Made by a program: the position numbers and the translations under genes. Below are positions 3,130 to 19,728 of a stretch of 20,686 bases of DNA, in pieces. How positions within the stretch are numbered: the stretch's first letter is position 1; each line of letters starts with the position of its first letter. Location: positions 1-20,686 of IMG/VR virus record IMGVR_UViG_3300030333_003410. One strand, written 5' to 3'. A model generated the notes under the pieces. The model saw nothing but the letters and a program-made list of their open reading frames with translations, ran no database searches and was not told the origin of the DNA. Source of the DNA: a virus.

Positions 3130-3552
3130 ATGAAGATTTCACTGATAGCGTTATGTCTTGTTACCGCCACTTATGCTGAAACAGAAAAGCCTCACAGGGA
3201 ACTGCTCGATGCAATCTGTCAAGTAGAATCGAACTGCAATCCAGACGCCGTTGGTGATAACGGAAACGCAATCGGCGCATATCAGATTTGGTATGACTAC
3301 TGGTACGATGCAGTTACTTTCAGAGATGATGATGACCTTGAACTTTCAGACGGTTATAAAAGTTGCTACGATAAAGACTATTCCGAAAAGGTAGTGCTTG
3401 TATACTGGGAACGGTATGCTACAATGAAGCGACTTGGAAGGACACCCACCGATGAAGACCGAGCAAGGATTCACAATGGAGGCCCGAATGGTTACAAGAA
3501 AGAAGCAACAGACGGTTACTGGAGCAAAGTGAAGAAGCGGCTAGATGAGTGA
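3130..3552 (+). CDS. Secreted i-type (destabilase-like) lysozyme, probable endolysin
   Basis: A 140-aa protein with a short signal peptide (residues 1-16, cut expected after ATYA). The mature part resembles invertebrate-type lysozymes: ICQVESNC at 29-36, with E33 matching the catalytic Glu; an Asp-rich loop with D39/D43; GAYQIWYDYW at 49-58; and the family's C-terminal block RIHNGGPNGY at 113-122 followed by YWSKV. These enzymes cleave the MurNAc-GlcNAc bond of peptidoglycan. Unlike animal members it has few Cys (C30, C36, C79). The signal peptide suggests Sec export, so release might not depend wholly on a holin. The gene has its own promoter-like boxes and overlaps the polymerase start by 8 bases. 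Confidence 0.8.
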   Translation: MKISLIALCLVTATYAETEKPHRELLDAICQVESNCNPDAVGDNGNAIGAYQIWYDYWYDAVTFRDDDDLELSDGYKSCYDKDYSEKVVLVYWERYATMKRLGRTPTDEDRARIHNGGPNGYKKEATDGYWSKVKKRLDE

Positions 3553-6079
3553 ATTCTATACAAACATCTCAATGCGTGGAAAATACATTCTCTATCGTGG
3601 TATCGATGAGAATGGTAATCGGGTAAACAGGAAAGAAGAATTCCATCCCACCCTCTTCGTGCCCTCTCAGGATGAAACTGACTGGAGGACACTGGAGGGT
3701 TTCTACGTTGAACCATTCCGACCTGGCAACATTCCAGAGACACGCGACTTCATCAATCAATACAAAGATGTGAAGGGGTTCGATGTTTATGGTAACACTG
3801 ATTATATTTGCCAGTATATTGCGGACAACTATCCTTCGGATGTTGACTATGACATTTCGAATATTGTAATTGCAAACATCGACATCGAAACAGAATCCGA
3901 ATATGGATTCCCGCAAGTTGACAATCCGAAAGAAAGAGTAAATGCTATCTCCGTAGATTTCAACGGAACGATGCACGTTTTCGGGTTGGGTGATTTCAAT
4001 CTAACCTCGGAAGAGGCAGACTATCAGTACAAGTGCGAAACCGAAGAAGAACTGCTTCGGGGTTTCCTTGAGTTGTGGGAAAAAGAATCACCCGACATCA
4101 TCACTGGTTGGAATGTTCGGTTCTTTGATATTCCGTATCTGGTGAATCGTATCGCAACGGTGATTGATGTCACGGATGCGAAGCGTATGTCTCCTTGGAA
4201 AATGCTCAAGGAGCGTAAGGTGGAGAAGTGGAATCGGGAGAACACCTGTTACGAACTTGGTGGTATTGCCACTCTTGACTATTATGAACTGTACAAGACA
4301 TTTACTTATGTCAATCAGGCTTCGTATTCGCTAAACCACATTGCAGAAGTTGAGTTGGGCGAAAAGAAGTTGGACTATTCGGAATATGATTCGATGTCTG
4401 AATTCTACAAGAACGATTTCCAGAAGTTTATGGAATACAATGTTCTCGACACTCGACTGGTGATGAAACTCGAAGACAAGATGAAGTTGCTTGAACTTGC
4501 CATATCTCTTGCATATGCAGCCAAGGTGAACTTCAATGATGTCTTCGGTCAGGTGCGAATGTGGGATTCAATCATCTATCATTATCTCAATGAACACAAG
4601 ATTGCGATTCCCCCAAAGAAGGGTTCCACGAAGGACGCACAATACGCAGGTGCGTATGTCAAAGACCCTATCACTGGTATGCACGACTGGGTTGTCTCGT
4701 TCGACTTGAACAGTCTGTATCCTCACTTGATTATGCAGTACAACATCAGTCCAGAGACAAAGATTGATGGGAAAGATTATTCCATCACTCCGAACTCTAT
4801 TCTTAAAGGCAAGGAAGTCGCACACGATGCCTATTCTATTGCGGCGAATGGAACTTCTTATCGTAAAGACCACCAAGGATTTCTTCCTGCTCTAATGGAG
4901 AAGTTGTACAAAGAACGCAAGATGTACAAGAAGAAGATGATTGAGTGTCAAAAGCAGAAGCAAGAGATTCCAAAGATGAATATGCCTACGCTAGGCAGAC
5001 ACGCACTGGATACGAAACTCTCGAAAGAGATTGCGAAGTACAACAACTTCCAATTGGTTCGTAAGATTCAGTTGAACTCTGCTTATGGTGCGATTGGTAA
5101 TGAGTGGTTCCGATACTTCGATGTCGATATGGCAGAAGCAATCACTCTATCTGGACAGTTGAGTATTCGCTGGATTGCGAATCATCTTAACGATTTTTTG
5201 AATGAGACAATCGGAACAAAGGAGTATGATTATGTTGTTGCATCTGACACAGATTCTGTTTATCTTCGTCTTGGGAATTTGGTGGACAAAGTATGTGGGG
5301 GTAAGTCCGAGTCGGAGGTGGTTGAATTCCTCAACAAAGCCTCTGAGGAAATAATCCTACCTTTCATCAAAAAGAAGTATGACCAACTTGCTTGTAAGAT
5401 GAACGCATACGAAAACAAGATGGTGATGGACAGAGAGTGTATCGCATCGAAGGCGGTTTGGACTGCGAAGAAGCGATATATGATGCTCGTCCACGACTCC
5501 GAAGGTATTCGTTACGCAGAACCCAAGATGAAAATTATGGGTATCGAAACGACTCGTAGTTCTACGCCTCAGGTTGTTCGTGATGCGTTGACAGAAGCCA
5601 TCAAGTTGATTCTAACTACTGATGAAAAGACAGTAATCAAATTCATTGAGGATTTCAGAACACAGTTCAACCAGTTTACACCAGAGGAGATTGCTTTCCC
5701 TAGAAGCGTGAACGGTATGAAGAAGTATATCGACAGGGCTACCATCTACAAGAAGTCTACTCCCATTGCGGTAAAGGGTTCTTTGATTTACAATCATTAC
5801 ATCAAAGAACTCGGAGTCACGGACAAGCACAGGGAGATTGTCGATGGTGACAAAATTAAATTCCTGCATCTAATCAAACCCAATCCACTTGGCGGAATTG
5901 CAGGTACTGACCAAGTGGTAGCATTTCCAAATGACCTTCCTAGAGAATTTAAAATAGAGAAGTTCATTGATTATGAAATGCAATTCGAAAAGTCATTTCT
6001 TTTCCCACTCAAGAACATTCTTGAAATCATCGGATGGCAGTGGGAAGAGGTTTCATCTTTAGAAGGATTTTTTGTATGA
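3545..6079 (+). CDS. 43: Family B DNA polymerase (T4 gp43 type)
   Basis: An 844-aa replicative polymerase with 3'-5' exonuclease, a little shorter than T4 gp43. The exonuclease part shows DIETE at 113-117 (Exo I), GWNVRFFDIPYLVNR at 188-202 (Exo II) and YNVLDTRLV near 299-307 (Exo III). The polymerase part shows motif A DLNSLYP starting at D387, motif B K507 with NSAYG, and motif C SDTDS at 567-571, followed by KKRYMM. All catalytic Asp residues are present. It would copy phage DNA at the fork with the helicase and primase encoded downstream. The start at 3545 lies inside the end of the lysozyme gene and has no clear ribosome binding site, suggesting coupled translation. Confidence 0.97.
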   Translation: MSEFYTNISMRGKYILYRGIDENGNRVNRKEEFHPTLFVPSQDETDWRTLEGFYVEPFRPGNIPETRDFINQYKDVKGFDVYGNTDYICQYIADNYPSDVDYDISNIVIANIDIETESEYGFPQVDNPKERVNAISVDFNGTMHVFGLGDFNLTSEEADYQYKCETEEELLRGFLELWEKESPDIITGWNVRFFDIPYLVNRIATVIDVTDAKRMSPWKMLKERKVEKWNRENTCYELGGIATLDYYELYKTFTYVNQASYSLNHIAEVELGEKKLDYSEYDSMSEFYKNDFQKFMEYNVLDTRLVMKLEDKMKLLELAISLAYAAKVNFNDVFGQVRMWDSIIYHYLNEHKIAIPPKKGSTKDAQYAGAYVKDPITGMHDWVVSFDLNSLYPHLIMQYNISPETKIDGKDYSITPNSILKGKEVAHDAYSIAANGTSYRKDHQGFLPALMEKLYKERKMYKKKMIECQKQKQEIPKMNMPTLGRHALDTKLSKEIAKYNNFQLVRKIQLNSAYGAIGNEWFRYFDVDMAEAITLSGQLSIRWIANHLNDFLNETIGTKEYDYVVASDTDSVYLRLGNLVDKVCGGKSESEVVEFLNKASEEIILPFIKKKYDQLACKMNAYENKMVMDRECIASKAVWTAKKRYMMLVHDSEGIRYAEPKMKIMGIETTRSSTPQVVRDALTEAIKLILTTDEKTVIKFIEDFRTQFNQFTPEEIAFPRSVNGMKKYIDRATIYKKSTPIAVKGSLIYNHYIKELGVTDKHREIVDGDKIKFLHLIKPNPLGGIAGTDQVVAFPNDLPREFKIEKFIDYEMQFEKSFLFPLKNILEIIGWQWEEVSSLEGFFV

Positions 6080-7647: not shown

Positions 7648-7954
7648 ATACACTTATGTAAATCATCCTGCCGCCGAAAAGAAGCAGGCAATAGAAATTA
7701 AAAATGGGGAGTATGCGGGAATTGTATTCCACTACAACCAAGTTAGTTTCTATGAGGAGGATGATACACCTCACGTTAAATTTGACTATGATATTCTTAA
7801 GGGTACAGACCCAAACACAGAAGAGTTCACCAATCTGTTAGGTGACATCGTAGTTGATATTTTGGAACGAGAGTTCAAACGCTCCAGTGGAGGAGTCCTT
7901 GTAGATGAATCAGACTATAGAGAAAACGATACTAAAGAACCTTCTAAAAAATGA
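7640..7954 (+). CDS. Unknown protein between uvsX and the helicase gene
   Basis: A 104-aa acidic protein starting [10 protein letters not shown]. It has an alternating strand pattern in the first 55 residues ([24 protein letters not shown]), an amphipathic helix ([19 protein letters not shown], about 65-83) and a charged, probably flexible tail (about 84-104). A small gene in this position is usual in marine T4-like phages, so it is probably a replication accessory protein, but I cannot name its job. Its last 50 bases also encode the helicase start in another frame, an unusually long overlap for this window, so its flexible tail may exist mainly because of that dual coding. Confidence 0.75.
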
Positions 7955-9314
7955 AGCATACACCCGAAAGGTTGTGCCATTTATCAAGGAAGAATACTTT
8001 CACGACAGATTAGAGAAGATGGTTTTCACATCTATCTTTGAGTTCGTTGCAAAGTATAATTCACTTCCTCCCCTCGATGCGTTGAGCATCACACTTTCAA
8101 ATGCGTCAATTAGTAGTGACGAGTTTGAGGGTGCGTCTAAACTATTGGAAGAAATTGACAGCGAAGCAGATACCAACGAAGATTGGTTGATTGAACAAAC
8201 TGAAAAGTTCTGTAAAGACAAGGCGGTGTACAATGCGATTATGGAGTCAATCCACATTATCGATGGCAAGTCAACGAGCGTCAAGACGGAGAACGCAATT
8301 CCAGAAATCCTCTCCGAAGCCTTATCAGTCTCCTTCGACACAAGTGTCGGACACGACTACATCGAAGACGCAGAAGACCGATACAAATTCTACCACAAAG
8401 TAGAAGAGAAGGTTCCGTTTGATATTAGTTTGTTGAACACCATCACGAATGGTGGGACACCGACTAAGACATTGAACATTGTGATGGCGGGAACTGGTGT
8501 GGGCAAGTCACTCTTTATGTGTCACCACGCCGCTTCCTGCCTAGCACAAGGACTGAATGTTCTCTATATTACTTGTGAGATGGCAGAAGAAAGAATCGCA
8601 GAACGTATCGATGCAAATCTTATGGACATCACAATGGACGAACTCAAAGAACTTCCAGAGATGTCCTACGCAAAGAAGATTGGCAAGATTCAGAAAAACA
8701 ACTGCGGGAAACTCATTGTCAAAGAATACCCCACAGCAACAGCAAGCACAAACCACTTCCGCCATCTTCTCGATGAACTTGGTATGAAGAAGAAGTTCAA
8801 ACCTGATATTATCTTTGTTGACTATCTAAACATCTGTGCGTCTTCTCGTATGAAGATGTCTGGTAGCGTCAACTCTTACACATATATCAAAGCAATCGCA
8901 GAAGAACTTCGAGGACTTGCAGTTGAGAGAAACGTGCCAGTTTGGTCAGCCACTCAGGTGAACAGAACTGGTTACACCTCAAGCGATTTTGGACTGGAGG
9001 ACACATCAGAATCATTCGGTCTACCAGCAACGGCTGACTTTATGATTGCGTTGATTGGTACAGAGGAACTTGACCAGTTGGGTCAGATTCTTCTAAAGCA
9101 ACTAAAGAATAGATACAACGATTCAATTACAAATCGGAAATTTGTAATTGGTATCAATCGTGCCAAAATGAAACTTTTTGACTTGGAAGAAACTGCACAA
9201 GTTGGACTAGTTGACACTGGACAAAAAGATAGTTTTGGTGTAGGATTTGATGGTAATAATTTTGACACAAAGTTTACAAAGAAAGCCAGTGAATTCACTG
9301 ACTGGAAAATTTAG
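7905..9314 (+). CDS. 41: Replicative DNA helicase (T4 gp41 / DnaB type)
   Basis: A 469-aa hexameric 5'-3' helicase. The N-terminal part (about 1-150) is the helical DnaB-type domain. The RecA-like core has Walker A AGTGVGKS at 195-202, Walker B DIIFVDYLNI at 301-310 and an SATQVNRTG sensor block near 345-353, all intact. It unwinds DNA ahead of the polymerase and pairs with the primase at 9453. Start 7905 is chosen because GGAGGAG lies about 10-17 bases upstream, although it overlaps the previous gene by 50 bases; no later ATG keeps the full N-terminal domain. No loader (gp59-like) gene is seen in the window. Confidence 0.95.
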   Translation: MNQTIEKTILKNLLKNEAYTRKVVPFIKEEYFHDRLEKMVFTSIFEFVAKYNSLPPLDALSITLSNASISSDEFEGASKLLEEIDSEADTNEDWLIEQTEKFCKDKAVYNAIMESIHIIDGKSTSVKTENAIPEILSEALSVSFDTSVGHDYIEDAEDRYKFYHKVEEKVPFDISLLNTITNGGTPTKTLNIVMAGTGVGKSLFMCHHAASCLAQGLNVLYITCEMAEERIAERIDANLMDITMDELKELPEMSYAKKIGKIQKNNCGKLIVKEYPTATASTNHFRHLLDELGMKKKFKPDIIFVDYLNICASSRMKMSGSVNSYTYIKAIAEELRGLAVERNVPVWSATQVNRTGYTSSDFGLEDTSESFGLPATADFMIALIGTEELDQLGQILLKQLKNRYNDSITNRKFVIGINRAKMKLFDLEETAQVGLVDTGQKDSFGVGFDGNNFDTKFTKKASEFTDWKI

Positions 9315-10511: not shown

Positions 10512-11456
10512 ATGTCAGATATTTCGTTATGGATGTGGGTGGGGTTCCTCCTCGCCGCATATAGTGTTATTGCAAACGATTCAATTCAAACTCTTGGAAC
10601 TTGGATTGCAAGCAACAAAAAAGTAAACTGGAAGATTATGTGGGGCTTTGCGGGTTCCGTTCTTCTCTTCGCAATCTGGTATGGTTGGTATGCATATGAT
10701 GGTAGTATTTCGTATGGAAGACTAAACAAAATTCCATTTGAAGGTGTGGAGTGGTATCAAGCACTTGCACCTGCTGTTCTTTTGTTACTTACTAGATTCG
10801 GTATTCCTGTTTCGACTTCGTTCTTGGTTCTTTCTGCATTTGCATCTACAGTGGTGCTAGAGAAAGTTCTAATGAAGTCTATGATGGGTTACTGTGTTGC
10901 AGGTGTTGCCGCTTATGTAATCTGGATTGTACTCACTCGCCTCCTTGACGAAGGCAAAGAAATCAAGGAAAAAAACAAAATCAAATGGAGAGTTGCACAG
11001 TGGGTGACAACTGCATTCCTTTGGTGGACTTGGTTGTCTCACGATATGGCAAACATCGCAGTGTTCCTGCCTCGACAACTTTCTGTGGATGTGATGATTA
11101 TCATCTCCGTTGTGTTTGTAGCAGGACTCGGGTGGATGCTCCAACACCGTGGTGGTAAGATTCAAGAGATTGTTCTTGAAAAGAAAAATACGAAATATGT
11201 TCGTTCTGCAACCTTGATTGATTTGTTCTACTTTATTATACTTTATATCTTCAAGGAAATGAATGACATTCCGATGTCCACCACTTGGGTGTTCGTTGGA
11301 CTCCTCACTGGACGAGAACTTGCAATTGCATCTTTCCGACACAAGGATAGTGTCAAGAAGGTGTTCCCAATGGTAAGCAAAGACTTCCTGAAGTTGATGG
11401 TTGGACTTGCCGCTTCACTACTAATCGTACTCATTGTTCAATATGCGAAAGGTTAA
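10512..11456 (+). CDS. PiT-family inorganic phosphate permease
   Basis: A 314-aa integral membrane protein with about nine or ten hydrophobic segments. The duplicated PiT (PHO4) signature is visible: a GANDxAN-like VIANDSIQT at 19-27 and its repeat SHDMANIAVFLPRQ at 176-189, with PVST at 99-102 and PMSTTWVFVGLLTGRE at 254-269. PiT carriers bring phosphate (as a metal or ion co-substrate) across the inner membrane. It is shorter than E. coli PitA (about 500 aa), near the size of compact members. It sits in the replication operon, three bases after primase, with AAAGG upstream of ATG 10512. Phosphate as substrate is a family inference; arsenate or sulfate cannot be excluded. Confidence 0.88.
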   Translation: MSDISLWMWVGFLLAAYSVIANDSIQTLGTWIASNKKVNWKIMWGFAGSVLLFAIWYGWYAYDGSISYGRLNKIPFEGVEWYQALAPAVLLLLTRFGIPVSTSFLVLSAFASTVVLEKVLMKSMMGYCVAGVAAYVIWIVLTRLLDEGKEIKEKNKIKWRVAQWVTTAFLWWTWLSHDMANIAVFLPRQLSVDVMIIISVVFVAGLGWMLQHRGGKIQEIVLEKKNTKYVRSATLIDLFYFIILYIFKEMNDIPMSTTWVFVGLLTGRELAIASFRHKDSVKKVFPMVSKDFLKLMVGLAASLLIVLIVQYAKG

Positions 11457-12257: not shown

Positions 12258-14207
12258 ATGGCACTACCTTCACTCTATCAAGATTTTATACACCTATCCC
12301 GCTATGCGAGATGGATAGAGGATACTGGCAAAAGAGAAACTTGGGAAGAAACTGTTTCACGTTATTTTGATTTTTTCCAAGAACACTTAGAAGAAAACAA
12401 CAACTACAAAGTTTCCAAAAAGGAAAGAGAAGAACTTGAGCAAGCAGTTCTAAATCTTGAAATCATGCCTTCAATGCGAGCATTGATGACCGCAGGAGAG
12501 GCACTCAAGAGAGATAATGTTGCGGGATACAATTGTTCTTTTGCGAGTGCGGGTCGAGTTCGTTCCTTTGATGAAATCCTTTATACTCTTATGTGTGGTA
12601 CTGGTGTTGGTTTTAGTGTCGAAAGAGATTTTCTAGATAAACTCGCTACGATATCAGAGGAGTTCGAAGAAAGTGATACGACCATTGTTGTCCAAGATAG
12701 TAAAATGGGTTGGGCAAAAGCGTACAAGGAACTCACATCCCTTCTTATTGGAGGTCAAATTCCAAAATGGGACTTGTCGAAAATTCGTCCGGCGGGAGCA
12801 AGACTTAAAACTTTTGGTGGTCGTGCTTCAGGACCGGCACCACTGGATGATTTATTTAAATTCACAGTGGAAACCTATAAGAAGGCTTCTGGAAGAAAAC
12901 TCACTTCCATCGAATGTCACGATATCATCTGTAAGGTTGCTGAAGTTGTCGTGGTGGGGGGAGTACGAAGAAGTGCCCTTATCTCACTCTCATCACTTAC
13001 CGACGAGCGGATGCGTGATGCGAAGCACGGACAGTGGTGGGTATCTGACCCACAAAGGGCGCTGTCGAACAACTCGGTTGCATACAAAGAAAAACCAGAG
13101 GTAGGAACATTCATGGAAGAATGGCTTTCTCTCTACAAGAGCAAGTCTGGTGAGCGTGGTATCTTCAATAGAGATGCCGCTATAAAACAAATCGAAAGAG
13201 CAAACGAGTTTCGAGAAACTCTTGGAGATTATCGTCTAAGAGAAACCAATCACGACTTCGGCACAAACCCGTGTTCGGAAATTATTCTTCGTGACCGGGA
13301 GTTTTGTAATCTGACTGAAATTGTGGTCAAGGGAGATGATACTATCGAAAGCCTTGAACGAAAGGTTAGACTCGCAACTATTCTTGGAACTTGGCAGTCC
13401 ACCCTCACCAACTTTAAATATCTGTCTAGTGAGTGGTCAAAGAATTGTGAGGACGAAAGACTTCTCGGTGTTTCCATGACTGGAATCATGGATAATTCTT
13501 TGACTAATGGAAAGAGCAAAGGTCTTGAGGAAAGATTAACTCAACTAAAGTCCATTGCAATTAAAACAAATAAAACACTTGCCGATAAGATTGGAATTAA
13601 TTCTTCAGTTGCTATTACTTGTGTTAAGCCATCGGGAACTGTTAGTCAATTGGTAGATGCCGCTTCTGGTATTCACGCACGACACAATCCCTATTATATT
13701 CGTACTGTTCGTGCAGATAATAAAGACCCGCTGTGTCAATTCATGAAGGATATTGGATTTCCAAATGAACCAGATGTCATGAAACCCGATGCAGTTACCG
13801 TATTTTCATTCCCACAGAAATCACCAAAAAATGCTGTCTGTAGACAGGATATGTCTGCAATCGAGCAACTTGAATTGTGGTTAATTTATCAAAAATTTTG
13901 GTGTGAACATAAACCATCCATTACAGTGACCGTAAAGGAGGATGAATGGATGAGTGTAGGTTCGTGGGTTTATACATATTTTAACGACGTATGTGGAGTA
14001 TCGTTTCTCCCCTACTCAGACCATTCATATCGGCAAGCGCCGTATCAAGATTGTACAGAAGAGGAATACAAAAAACTTCTGAAGGAAATGCCAAAAGAAG
14101 TGGATTGGAAACTACTTACAGATTATGAAAAAGAAGACAAGACAGCCGGTTCGCAAACATTCGCTTGTAGCGGAAACTCATGCGAAATAGTTGACCTTAC
14201 TTCTTGA
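12258..14207 (+). CDS. nrdJ: Adenosylcobalamin-dependent ribonucleotide reductase, monomeric class II
   Basis: A 649-aa class II reductase of the single-chain RTPR type, making dNTPs from ribonucleotides with a B12 radical. Cys93 (YNCSF) and Cys350 fit the active-site disulfide pair; Cys339 in NPCSE (339-341 are C-S-E) fits the thiyl-radical residue and E341 the general base. The C-terminal ACSGNSC supplies the shuttle pair C637/C642 (C-x4-C). It is shorter than the 739-aa Lactobacillus enzyme. AAAGGA precedes ATG 12258. No intein, frameshift or missing catalytic residue is seen. It needs host adenosylcobalamin, and no B12 riboswitch is apparent upstream. The stop overlaps a strong promoter for the next unit. 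Confidence 0.93.
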   Translation: MALPSLYQDFIHLSRYARWIEDTGKRETWEETVSRYFDFFQEHLEENNNYKVSKKEREELEQAVLNLEIMPSMRALMTAGEALKRDNVAGYNCSFASAGRVRSFDEILYTLMCGTGVGFSVERDFLDKLATISEEFEESDTTIVVQDSKMGWAKAYKELTSLLIGGQIPKWDLSKIRPAGARLKTFGGRASGPAPLDDLFKFTVETYKKASGRKLTSIECHDIICKVAEVVVVGGVRRSALISLSSLTDERMRDAKHGQWWVSDPQRALSNNSVAYKEKPEVGTFMEEWLSLYKSKSGERGIFNRDAAIKQIERANEFRETLGDYRLRETNHDFGTNPCSEIILRDREFCNLTEIVVKGDDTIESLERKVRLATILGTWQSTLTNFKYLSSEWSKNCEDERLLGVSMTGIMDNSLTNGKSKGLEERLTQLKSIAIKTNKTLADKIGINSSVAITCVKPSGTVSQLVDAASGIHARHNPYYIRTVRADNKDPLCQFMKDIGFPNEPDVMKPDAVTVFSFPQKSPKNAVCRQDMSAIEQLELWLIYQKFWCEHKPSITVTVKEDEWMSVGSWVYTYFNDVCGVSFLPYSDHSYRQAPYQDCTEEEYKKLLKEMPKEVDWKLLTDYEKEDKTAGSQTFACSGNSCEIVDLTS

Positions 14208-14231
14208 CAAAACATAACTACAAACTATAAT
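14204..14231 (+). promoter_or_regulatory. Perfect-consensus sigma70 promoter for the porin cassette
   Basis: TTGACA (14204-14209) and TATAAT (14226-14231) match the bacterial consensus exactly, with a 16-base spacer, and no other site in the window does. The predicted start near 14238 gives an 80-base leader before ATG 14318. This site overlaps the reductase stop codon and should be read by the unmodified host polymerase. Confidence 0.8.
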
Positions 14232-14538: not shown

Positions 14539-15663
14539 ATGAATATTTCAAAGAAGAAGTGGTCTATTTACGGTGCGATTGCAGCCGCTATTATTGTAGC
14601 ATCTTTCGCAACACCCGCAATCGCGGATGACGGTCAAAAGACCCCTGCACAACTCCGTGCAGAAGCAGACCGTATTGAACTGGCAGAACAACGAGCAAAG
14701 TACACAAAGAGACTTGTTCGTGAAGTTCTCGCTGATGCAGATTCCCGTACAATGCTACAGGGTAACGGAAGTCCCGTAACTGTAAATGTTCATGGATTTG
14801 CACAAACTCGCTATTCTTATAGCGGTGGTGGTGGACTCGAAGCCGAACATGGTTTCAATGTTCCCCGTGCAAGACTTATTGTTTCCGGTGATGTATTCGA
14901 CTGGGAGTATAAGGTAAGCGGTCAATGGAGTGACAGCACAAACACTTTCGACCTCAAGGATGCATATGCTCAGGGCGGTCTACTCGGCGGAACTTTCCGC
15001 GTTGGACAGTTTAAGGCTCCGTTTATGCGTGAGGTTCTTGTTGCACAGCAGGATACACTTATGACTGACCGTTCCATCGTTTCCAACCAGTTTGGACAGG
15101 GACGCTCACAGGGTATCCAGTGGAGTCGTGATTTTGGTATGCTCGACTTTGCAGGTGCATACACTGACGGATTCAACACTGCAAACGGTGCAGGTGTCCA
15201 GAATGGACAAGCATTCACCGCTCGCTTTGGTGTTGATGTTGCAGATTGGTGGAACATCGGTGCAGCCATCTCATACAATGATTTGGTTGATACTGACTAC
15301 ACCACTTACACCGTTGATACCAAACTCGCATTTAGCGGTCTTGACTTGACTGCGGCTTATGTTGCAACTAGCGGTGACGCTGGTGACAACTGGGGTGCAA
15401 CCGTTCAAGCAGGATACATGTGCATGGAAAACTTCCAAGGTTTCGTTGCATATGAGTACGGTGAACTTGAAGGTGTTACTGAAAATCTAAGCACATTCAC
15501 AGTTGGTGCCAACTATTGGTTCAACGATAATGTCAAGTGGACAACCGATGTTGGTTATGCACTTAATGGCATTAATAGTGCTTGGGATTTAGGTGAGACT
15601 GGATGGCGAGCAGGCGACTCTGGTGAGTACGTTGTTCGAACTCAGATTCAGGTATCATTCTGA
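14539..15663 (+). CDS. Outer-membrane porin, OprO/OprP-like, with planctomycete-like features
   Basis: A 374-aa secreted beta-barrel protein. Residues 1-29 are a signal peptide with cut after TPAIA; 36-66 form a charged coiled coil (QLRAEADRIELAEQRAKYTKR); 80-374 alternate short beta-strands and turns and end in Phe, the C-terminal barrel-assembly signal. The segments VLADADSRTML (63-73), GQFKAPFMRE (156-165) and GRSQGIQWSRDFG (188-200) resemble phosphate-selective porins O/P, and the ADADSRT block recalls planctomycete porins (from memory, not searched). The gene is visibly richer in G+C than the reductase gene. CTAAGGAGATTC gives a strong ribosome binding site. Barrel porins are rare in phages; likely roles are phosphate entry or altered receptors. 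Confidence 0.82.
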   Translation: MNISKKKWSIYGAIAAAIIVASFATPAIADDGQKTPAQLRAEADRIELAEQRAKYTKRLVREVLADADSRTMLQGNGSPVTVNVHGFAQTRYSYSGGGGLEAEHGFNVPRARLIVSGDVFDWEYKVSGQWSDSTNTFDLKDAYAQGGLLGGTFRVGQFKAPFMREVLVAQQDTLMTDRSIVSNQFGQGRSQGIQWSRDFGMLDFAGAYTDGFNTANGAGVQNGQAFTARFGVDVADWWNIGAAISYNDLVDTDYTTYTVDTKLAFSGLDLTAAYVATSGDAGDNWGATVQAGYMCMENFQGFVAYEYGELEGVTENLSTFTVGANYWFNDNVKWTTDVGYALNGINSAWDLGETGWRAGDSGEYVVRTQIQVSF

Positions 15664-15700: not shown

Positions 15701-15736
15701 AGCAGTCTCATTTATTGAGGCTGTTTTTTTGTTTTT
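15701..15736 (+). terminator. Rho-independent terminator after the porin gene
   Basis: CAGTCTCA (15703-15710) pairs with TGAGGCTG (15716-15723), including one G-T pair, around a TTTAT loop, and is followed by seven T and a further T run. It lies 38 bases after the porin stop and closes the cassette. Confidence 0.85.
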
Positions 15737-15777
15737 ACCTTAAAAAATAGCCACTTCTCTTATACATATTATATGGA

Positions 15778-16497
15778 ATGAGAAAAAATATTGGATATCT
15801 TCTAGCAACTATATTATGTTTTTCTGGTTGCAAGACAATTCAGAATACGCCTCATCCACCAAAACAAGAAATCAAAAAAGCACCGGCAACTCACACTTAT
15901 TTGCATGAGTTTCCATTTGACCCATATCCCTTTGTTGGTTCTATCAACCATTCTGATGGTAGACTAATAGGGAGTGCTGTCGTAATTGCACCCAATCTAA
16001 TTCTTACTGCCGCCCATGTGACAGAAGGAAGAGATGATTTAATGTTCGTTGAATATGATGGAGATACTCACTGTATCAAAGAAGTAATTTACTATCCAAC
16101 ATACAATCCTGAAATACTCGAACATGATATTGCAATAGCAGTTCTCGAAACAGAATCAAATGAACAACCCGTTTCTTTTGCGGATGTTACCTTTAAAAGA
16201 ATGAATCTAATTACTGTTGGATACGGAACCGGAAGCAAAAGATTCAGTAACTATGGTGTGTTTTGGTATTATGGTAGATTGATAGGAACACCACAATTTA
16301 TGATTATGTTGCCGATAGAGGGAACTATGTGGTTCGGTGATTCTGGTGGTGGTGTGTTTACGTTAGACAATAAACTGGTAGGAATTATGTCATATTTTCA
16401 GATGACTAAATCTGGTAAGATTTACGAGAACGGTTGTGCAAGTGTCGAGTACTATCGAGATTGGATTGAGAAGGTGAAATGCATTCAGACACCATAG
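15778..16497 (+). CDS. Trypsin-like serine protease lipoprotein
   Basis: A 239-aa exported protein. The N-terminus is a lipoprotein signal with lipobox FSGC, Cys18 being the lipid-anchored residue, followed by a Pro/Lys-rich linker to about 40. The rest is a chymotrypsin-fold (S1) domain with the full triad: H80 in TAAHV, D117 in EHDIAIAVL and S189 in GDSGGG. Substrate preference cannot be read. It would sit on the periplasmic or outer face of the envelope, so it may trim envelope or receptor proteins late in infection (inference). ATG 15778 has no ribosome binding site and lies 42 bases after a terminator, with only A+T-rich TATACA/TATTAT boxes between, so a short or absent leader is likely. 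Confidence 0.85.
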   Translation: MRKNIGYLLATILCFSGCKTIQNTPHPPKQEIKKAPATHTYLHEFPFDPYPFVGSINHSDGRLIGSAVVIAPNLILTAAHVTEGRDDLMFVEYDGDTHCIKEVIYYPTYNPEILEHDIAIAVLETESNEQPVSFADVTFKRMNLITVGYGTGSKRFSNYGVFWYYGRLIGTPQFMIMLPIEGTMWFGDSGGGVFTLDNKLVGIMSYFQMTKSGKIYENGCASVEYYRDWIEKVKCIQTP

Positions 16498-16633: not shown

Positions 16634-18349
16634 ATGGCGATATTCGTATGGGTCGGAAACAATCAAGTAATGGGTGGAAGTGCCACCGATTTAAGTGGTC
16701 TTACCGCAGCCGGTACAGGACCAACTCTAGGTGATGAAAAATTTGTGACAACAAACAATAGGTGGAATGTTGCATCCAACTGGAGAGAGAGAATCCCCGC
16801 TGGACAAACAGGAAACACCGGAGGGGGTGGTTCAGGTCCAGCAGGTTCTGGTTATTACTACGCAACCGCAACTAGATGGCCTGGTGCAAGTGGGACGAAT
16901 GATGTTGCAGTCTTTCAATATCTTTATGGTGAGGACGGTTCAAGAGGTCTGTCCGCATACCACCACTATCCAAAATCAGAACTTCTATATGGCGGCGTAA
17001 GTGGCGCAAATAACCTTTGGAACGATTCAGTTCTTTCGAGTACCGCAGATGTTATGGTTCAGGTCGAGTCAAGTTATTTCGACCACGGAATTACCAACTT
17101 CACCGCCCACGGCAACTACGAAAGATATTGGACCATGGCAGACCACATGCCCTACAAGAGAAGAAGATTTGGTTCAGACTTCCGGGGTCGTCCAGTTTCT
17201 GGTATAACCCAAGACGGAAACTTAGGTCTTAACTTAACAGTGTCCACAATTGAAATTGATAGTTCATTCAGTGATATGTCGTGGGTCGAATGGGGCTATG
17301 CGAGGACTATCGACGCACCCGTTATGGGAGCGGAGTCAACACCATGTGCCGAAACTCAAGTGGTTCTTACAGGACCGGACACAGTTGCAAAGACAAAGTT
17401 CGAAATGTACGGACAGGGTGACTATAAACTCTATGCACAATACATGAATAGATTCATCGCTTATCCGGTTGGTGGAACTCCGTTCGGTGGTGGAAATGCT
17501 GGTAGCGACTCAGGCATTCCAAACTATGAACGTATGCCAAAGATTGAATTGAACACAAATGTAACTTCACTCTGCCGAATCGCCGGTCTACATCTTGGTA
17601 AGTTTGATTACAATGGACTGTATGGTTCTACCCTCGGTGTAAATAGAATGGAACTTGGTAATAAGTGGGTACATACTGATAAACATTACTACAATAGAGG
17701 TTCATATAACCTAAGGGCTGGTGTTGATGACCTCCGTGTTTATCCTTCCAATATTGTGGATGACGAGGGGCGATGGTTCCCTAATTACTACGGCGTGAAC
17801 CCGACCAGTAGTTACATCCAAAAAAGGGCTCTGGTTAACATCGAGTCTTACGGAGTTGGAACTCGCACGGGTCTAACTATGGACAAAATTACCATGTTCA
17901 ATTCTAACCCATTCCAAGGAGTCACTCTAGAAACACCAACTTATGGTGGTTCAAGTGCTGGTTGGAACACCTCAGTCGAGTATAACTGTTTCCACGGAGA
18001 AAGTGCCGCAACGAGTACAGAACTTCTGTATAACATAAACATGGAAGGTGGTATTTTCTGGACGAGAAACATAGACGGTAACTTGAAGATTACAAACGGC
18101 GAACTAAACGGTCACCTTGCCACAATGAATATGTCTGCTCCTGTTGGACAAGACGGTTCTATCGAGGTGTCTGGTATGGCAACCGGAGGATACACAGGTC
18201 CGGGTGTCTTCATTATCGACCCAACTGCAAGATTGATTCCACCTGCTGGTGTAAGAGCCGCGTTTAGAACTCCATCTGGTGGTTCTGGTGATGCAGAACT
18301 CGGAAGTAAGGGTAAAGTCGTTCCTGCATTCGTTCGCAAACAGCCTTGA
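16634..18349 (+). CDS. Probable virion surface or adhesion protein (571 aa)
   Basis: The sequence opens MAIFVWVGNN and soon shows RWNVASNWRERIPAGQ, the W-x-x-A-x-N-W...P pattern found in phage tail and bacterial surface proteins. The remainder is rich in Gly, Ser, Thr, Asn, Tyr and aromatic residues, poor in Lys and Cys, with repeated short beta-strand turns like a beta-helix or beta-sandwich fibre. There is no signal peptide, which fits a virion protein better than an exported one. It stands between a late-promoter-like box and a terminator, as a single-gene unit with AAGGAG 9 bases upstream. It probably binds the host surface; the exact virion position is unknown. Confidence 0.6.
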   Translation: MAIFVWVGNNQVMGGSATDLSGLTAAGTGPTLGDEKFVTTNNRWNVASNWRERIPAGQTGNTGGGGSGPAGSGYYYATATRWPGASGTNDVAVFQYLYGEDGSRGLSAYHHYPKSELLYGGVSGANNLWNDSVLSSTADVMVQVESSYFDHGITNFTAHGNYERYWTMADHMPYKRRRFGSDFRGRPVSGITQDGNLGLNLTVSTIEIDSSFSDMSWVEWGYARTIDAPVMGAESTPCAETQVVLTGPDTVAKTKFEMYGQGDYKLYAQYMNRFIAYPVGGTPFGGGNAGSDSGIPNYERMPKIELNTNVTSLCRIAGLHLGKFDYNGLYGSTLGVNRMELGNKWVHTDKHYYNRGSYNLRAGVDDLRVYPSNIVDDEGRWFPNYYGVNPTSSYIQKRALVNIESYGVGTRTGLTMDKITMFNSNPFQGVTLETPTYGGSSAGWNTSVEYNCFHGESAATSTELLYNINMEGGIFWTRNIDGNLKITNGELNGHLATMNMSAPVGQDGSIEVSGMATGGYTGPGVFIIDPTARLIPPAGVRAAFRTPSGGSGDAELGSKGKVVPAFVRKQP

Positions 18350-18416: not shown

Positions 18417-18830
18417 ATGCACGGACACTGGACTAATTTACCCAATGACTTTAACCCAGACGATTGGTTTGGTTTTATCTATCTGATTACCCACAACGAA
18501 ACGGGCAGAAAGTATATTGGTAAAAAACAAATCCACTCATACCGGCGAAAGAAAGTCAAAGGACGAAAGAACCGAAAGCGTGTTGTAAGTGAATCAAAGT
18601 GGAGAGAGTACACTGGTTCATGTGACGAACTAAACGAAGAAATAGAAGCACAAGGAAAAGAAAAGTTCACCTTTGAAGTCCTGAAGTTATGCAAGACCAA
18701 AGGTGAACTCACCTTTTCTGAAGTAGAATCTCAAATCAAAAACGACGTTCTTTCTGCACTACTCGAAGATGGGAGTCGGGCTTACTACAACTCAAACATT
18801 ATGAGCAGATGGTTTTCTAAATCTTCTTAA
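18417..18830 (+). CDS. GIY-YIG-like nuclease-family protein
   Basis: A 137-aa protein. Residues about 18-37 (FGFIYLITHNETGRKYIGKK) fit the first two strands of the GIY-YIG fold, with IYL for GIY and YIG kept. They are followed by a basic run (SYRRKKVKGRKNRKR), a W-x-x-Y-TGS segment and a helix with Glu (EKFTFEVL). Proteins of this form occur in many T4-like phages as small putative endonucleases. Whether it is active, a homing enzyme or a DNA-end factor cannot be said. An in-frame TAG one codon before ATG 18417 fixes the start; there is no ribosome binding site. Its 3' end overlaps the opposing gene by 14 bases. Confidence 0.7.
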   Translation: MHGHWTNLPNDFNPDDWFGFIYLITHNETGRKYIGKKQIHSYRRKKVKGRKNRKRVVSESKWREYTGSCDELNEEIEAQGKEKFTFEVLKLCKTKGELTFSEVESQIKNDVLSALLEDGSRAYYNSNIMSRWFSKSS

Positions 18831-19728
18831 ACCCATTTTTGATTTTGACTTTGGCAATAATCTCCTTGGTCAAATCACTGGTCAATGCAGATGCTACTCC
18901 ACCCGCTCCAAAGATTTTTTTCCGTTCTTCGTCGGTGAGGTGTTCCTTCATCGCTTCGATTAGACCAACAATTTCTTTCATTGCCTTTTCGTTGTCCCTG
19001 CCTCTAAGTAGCATCCACCCAACAACACCAATGGTCGCCAAGAATCCTACAATGAGAACAATCAATCCTACGATTGCAATTTCTTCGAGGTAATACTGAG
19101 AAGCGGCGGCGAAACCTACAGTAAGCACACCAATCGCCAATACAATACCACCAAGTTTTCCGTTAACCCAAAAAGTTAGGAAAGCACCACCCACCAGCAT
19201 ACCAAACCCTATTACAAAAAATAGGGTAATATAACTGTGCATATTTTCGAGTGCTTCTTTGCGAACTTCTCTATCGGACTGTTCGTACTCTTGGACTAAA
19301 TCTTCGAGTTGTTCTATCTGTCCCACAGCAGCCGCAACCCGAGCATTCGCAGACTCCAAATCCTCTAAAGCCTCTTCTATTCTTACTTGCTCTTTCTCTG
19401 CCCCATCCACGTTTTCCTTGATGCTTTCGGCTGAACTTTCGATGCTGTTCAGTGTCGGGTCGATGTTGTAATTTCGGCTTTGTGGAACCAGAGCGATTTC
19501 GTTGAGGATTAATTCCGCCTCTTTGTCGATGAGGTCTAGAAAGTCTCCTATCTCCCCCGAAGCGTCTGTAATCTCCCCTGTCTGCTCTCTCTGCTCTCTC
19601 AGACTGTCTACGACCGTCGAAGCGGTGTTCTCTGGAGCGTTGCTCATCTCTTGGAGCGTTTCGCAACCAAGGAGCGAAACCATCACCACGCTGATGAATA
19701 TGGTTTTCATTTCTGTTAGGGTTTTCAT
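18817..19728 (-). CDS. Coiled-coil lipoprotein with three C-terminal membrane segments, spanin-like
   Basis: A 303-aa protein. The lipobox SLLGC puts the lipidated Cys at 22. Residues about 40-165 are almost all helical, charged and heptad-like (coiled coil). Three hydrophobic helices follow at about 165-187, 191-209 and 215-241, and a charged C-terminal tail closes it. An outer-membrane lipid anchor, a long periplasmic coiled coil and an inner-membrane end is the layout of unimolecular spanins such as T1 gp11, though those are about half as long and have one span. AGGAGG about 9 bases before ATG 19728 supports this start over the Met at residue 7. An alternative is a host-envelope or phage-exclusion protein. 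Confidence 0.6.
   Translation of the reverse strand: MKTLTEMKTIFISVVMVSLLGCETLQEMSNAPENTASTVVDSLREQREQTGEITDASGEIGDFLDLIDKEAELILNEIALVPQSRNYNIDPTLNSIESSAESIKENVDGAEKEQVRIEEALEDLESANARVAAAVGQIEQLEDLVQEYEQSDREVRKEALENMHSYITLFFVIGFGMLVGGAFLTFWVNGKLGGIVLAIGVLTVGFAAASQYYLEEIAIVGLIVLIVGFLATIGVVGWMLLRGRDNEKAMKEIVGLIEAMKEHLTDEERKKIFGAGGVASALTSDLTKEIIAKVKIKNGFKKI

Follow-up and report, generated by a model that had tools for sequence, protein, structure and literature searches.

A putative late-expressed lipoprotein protease of the S1 fold in a marine T4-like phage and its uncultured relatives

Exported serine proteases of the S1 fold are already known from phages, and trypsin-like proteases have been described in the T4-superfamily rhizobial phages P10VF and phiM9 (PMC10783043). 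The window analysed here, a stretch of 20,686 nucleotides from an IMG/VR record of 26.8 kb, encodes a protein that resembles these two and the protease of Rhizobium phage RHph_TM3_3_14B in being phage-encoded and in having an N-terminal hydrophobic export or anchor segment and a single S1 domain. However, those three proteins lack the lipobox cysteine, carry GMSGG or GQSGG at the active site and match the profile of the family described below weakly or not at all; all three, including the RHph_TM3_3_14B protein recovered from INPHARED at 27 % identity, were rejected as family members. The P10VF gene also has a Shine-Dalgarno sequence, unlike the representatives of our family. With peptidase family S1 as a whole, the protein shares the fold, the order and spacing of His, Asp and Ser, and the GDSGG motif, but it differs in its predicted lipid anchor, the lack of the trypsin Asp at trypsin position 189, a bulky residue at trypsin position 216 and the signature SNYG-FWYYG.

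Another phage lipoprotein is the superinfection-exclusion protein Llp of T5, which resides in the outer membrane and acts there from the side of the periplasm (PMC9586334). Rather than being a protease, Llp binds FhuA, and exclusion proteins are usually early. In its control region the gene resembles the T4 late promoters (TATAAATA; gp55, gp33, gp45), as the box is the same and gp55 and gp45 homologues occur in the long family members. Unlike in T4, the box abuts the start codon, with a predicted leader of 0-4 nt and no Shine-Dalgarno sequence, and in some of the members a conserved element directly precedes the box. It has been remarked that phage transcripts are often leaderless (PMC5312081). 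We found no description of this protease family in the literature searched, nor did the collections and literature searched show a lipid anchor, this signature and an abutting T4-type late box in combination.

Anatomy, fold and substrate pocket of the protease

An earlier note on this DNA had claimed a lipobox joined to an S1 domain with the triad H80, D117 and S189. The residues and their contexts were confirmed, with Cys18 lying in FSGC, His80 in TAAH, Asp117 in EHDIA and Ser189 in GDSGG (Table 1). The profile search against S1 families, suggested in the same note, gave matches to Pfam Trypsin (PF00089, 2e-14) and Trypsin_2 (PF13365, 3.2e-11), both exceeding the gathering cut-offs, and the protein also matched PHROG 9683 'protease' (6.5e-11). 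The open reading frame stops after the S1 domain and contains no PDZ domain. The AlphaFold2 model built from 40 sequences (mean pLDDT 89, pTM 0.81) superseded a poor earlier model from only 9 sequences (pLDDT 62.7), and the best solved structures in Foldseek were trypsins and related S1 enzymes (E 7e-12 to 1e-10, TM about 0.65-0.68). Pfam, the model and Foldseek all place the triad in register within an S1 fold, and neither of the two outcomes that the note had named as refuting, a model lacking the fold or triad residues out of register, was obtained. We are highly confident of this anatomy (fold, triad and lipobox), and the prediction of a phage-encoded, lipid-anchored S1-fold protease with an intact triad is supported.

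Table 1. Positions of the protease gene, its parts and its upstream region in the window
Feature	Position	Strand	Basis or remark
Sigma-70 site TTGACA-16-TATAAT upstream of the porin region	14204..14231	+	12/12 consensus match only
Porin-like outer-membrane protein	14539..15663	+	NCBIfam porin_ExtI 3.2e-7, below its cut-off; synteny
Intrinsic terminator of the porin gene	15701..15725	+	stem of 10 pairs, then T run
Element AGCCACTT immediately 5' of the late box	15749..15756	+	AGCC[AG]YTT conserved in the wider clade of the window
T4-type late promoter box TATACATA	15761..15768	+	9 nt before ATG; TATAAATA or a one-mismatch form at the homologous position in 30/38 clusters
Lipoprotein S1-fold serine protease, 239 aa, ATG start	15778..16497	+	ORF and triad, Pfam, model, Foldseek, 38-cluster family
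Predicted lipoprotein signal peptide, residues 1-17	15778..15828	+	sequence; lipobox FSGC
Lipobox Cys18 codon	15829-15831	+	invariant in 38/38 clusters
S1 domain, residues 50-230	15925..16467	+	Pfam alignment, model
Catalytic His80 codon	16015-16017	+	
Catalytic Asp117 codon	16126-16128	+	
Catalytic Ser189 codon	16342-16344	+	

The earlier description as 'trypsin-like' holds for the fold but not for the specificity. In the sequence register, trypsin position 189 is occupied by Thr in 25, Ser in 10, His in 3 and Ala in 2 of the 40 sequences, so that the Asp expected there for Arg/Lys specificity was not found, and every one of the 40 has Phe, Leu, Met or Ile at position 216. Because position 189 is mostly Thr or Ser and position 216 is bulky and hydrophobic, Arg/Lys specificity is unlikely, and the pocket suggests a preference for small or hydrophobic residues at P1. 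No conserved activation site was recognised in the family; Asp188 corresponds to trypsin position 194.

In enterobacteria, the Lol rule directs lipoproteins without Asp at position +2 to the outer membrane, where they face the periplasm by default. As Asp follows the lipobox Cys at +2 only in L011 in the family alignment, all other members should sort to the outer membrane, provided that this enterobacterial rule, which may not be that of the host, applies.

Family, distribution and genomic context

Relatives of the protease are encoded on at least 245 IMG/VR stretches (10 from a single-sequence scan, then 245 from an alignment scan). The family analysis took the best 80 of these at least 245 relatives in viral contigs; 79 near-full-length sequences, the window included, formed 38 clusters at 80 % identity, and the alignment had 40 rows. 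Cys18, His80 and Asp117 are invariant in 38/38 clusters at a divergence reaching down to about 31-33 % identity. Ser189 is invariant in all 38 as well, although, unlike the other three, it was in part selected through the motif used for searching. The SNYG-FWYYG signature is conserved. Pairwise dN/dS ranges from 0.06 to 0.28 (about 0.15), and the gene is under purifying selection.

Three family members were used as queries against 50,697 phage records, and no close relative was found. The window protein retrieved a single HtrA-like match at 27 %, the RHph_TM3_3_14B protein, the second member none and the third weak ones (E 7e-3, 26 %) to S1-family protein of Staphylococcus phage, which were too weak to use. 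No S1 match came from the searches run on each of S-RSM4, phiM12, Cr30, Mosig and pf16; in Mosig, a cultured phage of Pelagibacter, ribonucleotide reductase genes lie near RuvC, and neither the profile nor Trypsin_2 found an S1 protein there. Two scans of a bacterial and archaeal genome collection, keyed on short motifs that cellular relatives could escape, returned one relative. It sits on a metagenome-assembled contig that is phage-like, an adjoining ORF resembling a phage protein of locus L006.

A membrane-anchored S1 protease had been called unusual for a phage in the earlier note. In this lineage it is not rare: when loci were reached from the RuvC-like gene, the protease was present in 46 of the 75 testable ones. 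It was missing in the other 29, and the gene is therefore common yet dispensable in the lineage. The note had also proposed looking for the gene in other phages beside different neighbours; the porin neighbour is present in 14/38 loci.

The source is a marine T4-like virus of bacteria with many uncultured relatives. The DNA polymerase of the window is closest to cyanomyovirus gp43 (about 51 %). Family members of 157 and 147 kb, as distinct from the window record, encode gp23 and homologues of T4 gp55, gp45, gp44 and gp43, with E values of 4e-20 to 2e-35 for gp55 and gp45. The conserved gene order is DnaB, primase, ThyX, ribonucleotide reductase, (porin), protease and RuvC-like gene, followed by convergent genes; in the clade of the window itself, a GIY-YIG endonuclease occupies the RuvC-like position. 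The convergent genes have a lipobox or membrane topology, and no family library named them as lysis proteins.

Several other genes of these loci are worth recording. On the minus strand, window 18817-19728 and L006 9916-10797 each encode one protein that combines a lipobox with a long coiled coil and with several segments of hydrophobic residues. In other loci this slot holds a short lipobox/TM protein and a protein with three hydrophobic segments, which have a spanin- or holin-like look and were not named by the libraries. An uncharacterised protein of 571-578 aa (window 16634-18349, plus strand; L006 4378-6102, minus strand) is encoded on one strand in the window and on the other in its relatives, and the side of the protease on which it sits differs as well. 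L107, L108 and L130, which lack the protease, have other exported proteins, barrel-like or lipoprotein, upstream of the RuvC-like gene, as if this slot collected envelope genes. At 3130-3552 (plus strand) the window encodes a secreted i-type lysozyme-like protein (Pfam Destabilase, 3.3e-16) with an apparent signal peptide, a possible endolysin of an animal-type family. The product of 10512-11456 (plus strand), a membrane protein, matches the PHO4 phosphate permease below threshold (2e-6; 27.4 bits, where the cut-off is 33.7).

A probable late-type promoter at the start codon

According to the earlier note, the gene has no ribosome binding site. This is true for the window gene, and a Shine-Dalgarno core was found in 0/38 cluster representatives. 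The lack is explained by the T4-type late box that abuts the start codon, and the layout is conserved. The homologous position reads TATAAATA exactly in 13/38 clusters and with one mismatch in 17/38, giving 30/38 in total; these 30 share common ancestry and do not amount to 30 independent tests. The box ends 5-13 nt before the ATG in the 30 clusters, 28 of them at 5-9 nt. In a letter-shuffle control for chance, on average 3.7 % of shuffles matched equally well across the 30 clusters. A box within one mismatch is missing in 8/38.

In T4, the late box occupies positions -13 to -6 relative to the transcript start (PMC1524935). With this geometry, spacings of 5-9 nt would give leaders of 0-4 nt, and the transcript of the window gene is predicted to start near 15774 with a leader of about 4 nt. 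No sigma-70 promoter was found directly before the protease gene. We consider late control of the gene likely, and its mRNA would be late and almost leaderless. The layout can change, since a Shine-Dalgarno sequence does occur in L007 and, within the L049 clade, in several members.

On the same contigs, a Shine-Dalgarno-like core is present before every other gene whose TATAAATA lies 15-46 nt upstream. These two spacing classes recur in the 157 kb member, with one exception at 21 nt. Short spacing is also seen for several of the RuvC-like neighbours and for a few further genes. Where the RuvC-like gene follows the protease, TATAAATA frequently lies only 1-7 nt from its ATG and a Shine-Dalgarno sequence is missing (L009 6398, L049 9155, L069 1561, L073 1338, L077 675), and it is a candidate for a second leaderless late gene. 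Among the scanned loci, AGCC[AG]YTT together with the late box occurs only before the protease gene, except for one site in L003-L005, which lies in that intergenic region but on the other strand. In some relatives AGCCACTT is paired with an inverted AAGTGGCT a short way upstream (L003 about 5580-5640; L074 about 7930-7975).

The gene had further been described as lying just after the porin terminator, with control separate from that of the porin. The terminator is there, and separate control is supported because the porin region has a sigma-70 consensus match and its own terminator while the protease has the late box. The porin would thus be under early-type and the protease under late-type control. 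The window porin had no match in the phage record collection.

Possible roles in the host envelope

As a whole, we tentatively propose a late, lipid-anchored S1 envelope protease of uncultured T4-like phages that aids lysis or release, a plausible reading in which our trust is limited. Late in infection, RNA polymerase with a gp55-type sigma factor and a gp45-type clamp would start at the box before the gene, and the position of the box suggests an almost leaderless transcript. Sec would export the product, and lipidation at Cys18 would tether it to the envelope, probably at the periplasmic face of the outer membrane. There the protease may cut one or several proteins of the host envelope, with a small or hydrophobic residue rather than Arg/Lys before the cut if the pocket is a guide, and its most likely role would be to weaken the envelope for lysis or for clean release of progeny. 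This reading rests on the predicted late timing and export and on the convergent membrane-type neighbours. Against it stand the fact that no library names these neighbours as lysis proteins, the absence of the gene from 29/75 loci and the 8/38 clusters without a box. A sharper version, in which the lipid-anchored protease, translated from an almost leaderless late mRNA of its own, cuts the tethers between outer membrane and cell and so supplements or replaces spanins in this lineage as a new type of Gram-negative lysis or release factor, is quite unlikely.

Of the roles suggested in the earlier note, help in lysis is the one we favour, and removal of receptors against later phages is less likely given the late-type box; on the same ground of late timing, classical early superinfection exclusion appears less likely than a role late in infection, in the envelope or in lysis. 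Receptor inactivation nevertheless ranks as the main rival, although we think it unlikely. The protease would clip the host outer-membrane receptor, its plug or a periplasmic partner and block re-adsorption to infected cells or debris, resembling T5 Llp in place and purpose but acting by cutting. Llp, an outer-membrane lipoprotein encoded by the phage, acts on a receptor from the periplasm and also stops adsorption to cell fragments (PMC9586334). The other envelope genes of the locus, including the porin in 14/38 loci, fit such a role, and a common but dispensable distribution suits a guard function. Yet exclusion proteins are usually early (PMC9586334), in contrast to the late-type box here, and a lipobox alone does not predict surface exposure.

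Envelope housekeeping or counter-defence seems improbable. Here the protease would remove misfolded or toxic envelope proteins in the manner of HtrA, or cut a stress or defence sensor, so that the cell lasts until lysis. The S1 fold is common to HtrA-type enzymes, and exported S1 proteases exist in other T4-superfamily phages, but those have the HtrA-like GMSGG or GQSGG where this family has GDSGG, and the missing PDZ domain also argues against an HtrA-type enzyme. Matches to PADLOC defence proteins (3.8e-9 for the window protein, and weaker) were set aside as reflecting the shared S1 domain alone, and late timing would leave little time for protection. That a captured host gene with little role in the phage lies beside the porin by chance is very improbable and was already disfavoured: bacteria often encode S1 peptidases, as seen in control genomes, and some related loci lack the gene, but position and promoter layout are kept over wide divergence under purifying selection, and the only relative in the genome collection sits on a phage-like contig.

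If the protease acts in lysis, as we prefer, or in receptor removal, it would fill a gap in the picture of how these uncultured T4-like phages leave their hosts or guard them. The late box placed repeatedly on the start codon, before the protease and some RuvC-like copies, offers an example on which leaderless translation of late genes in T4-like phages can be tested.
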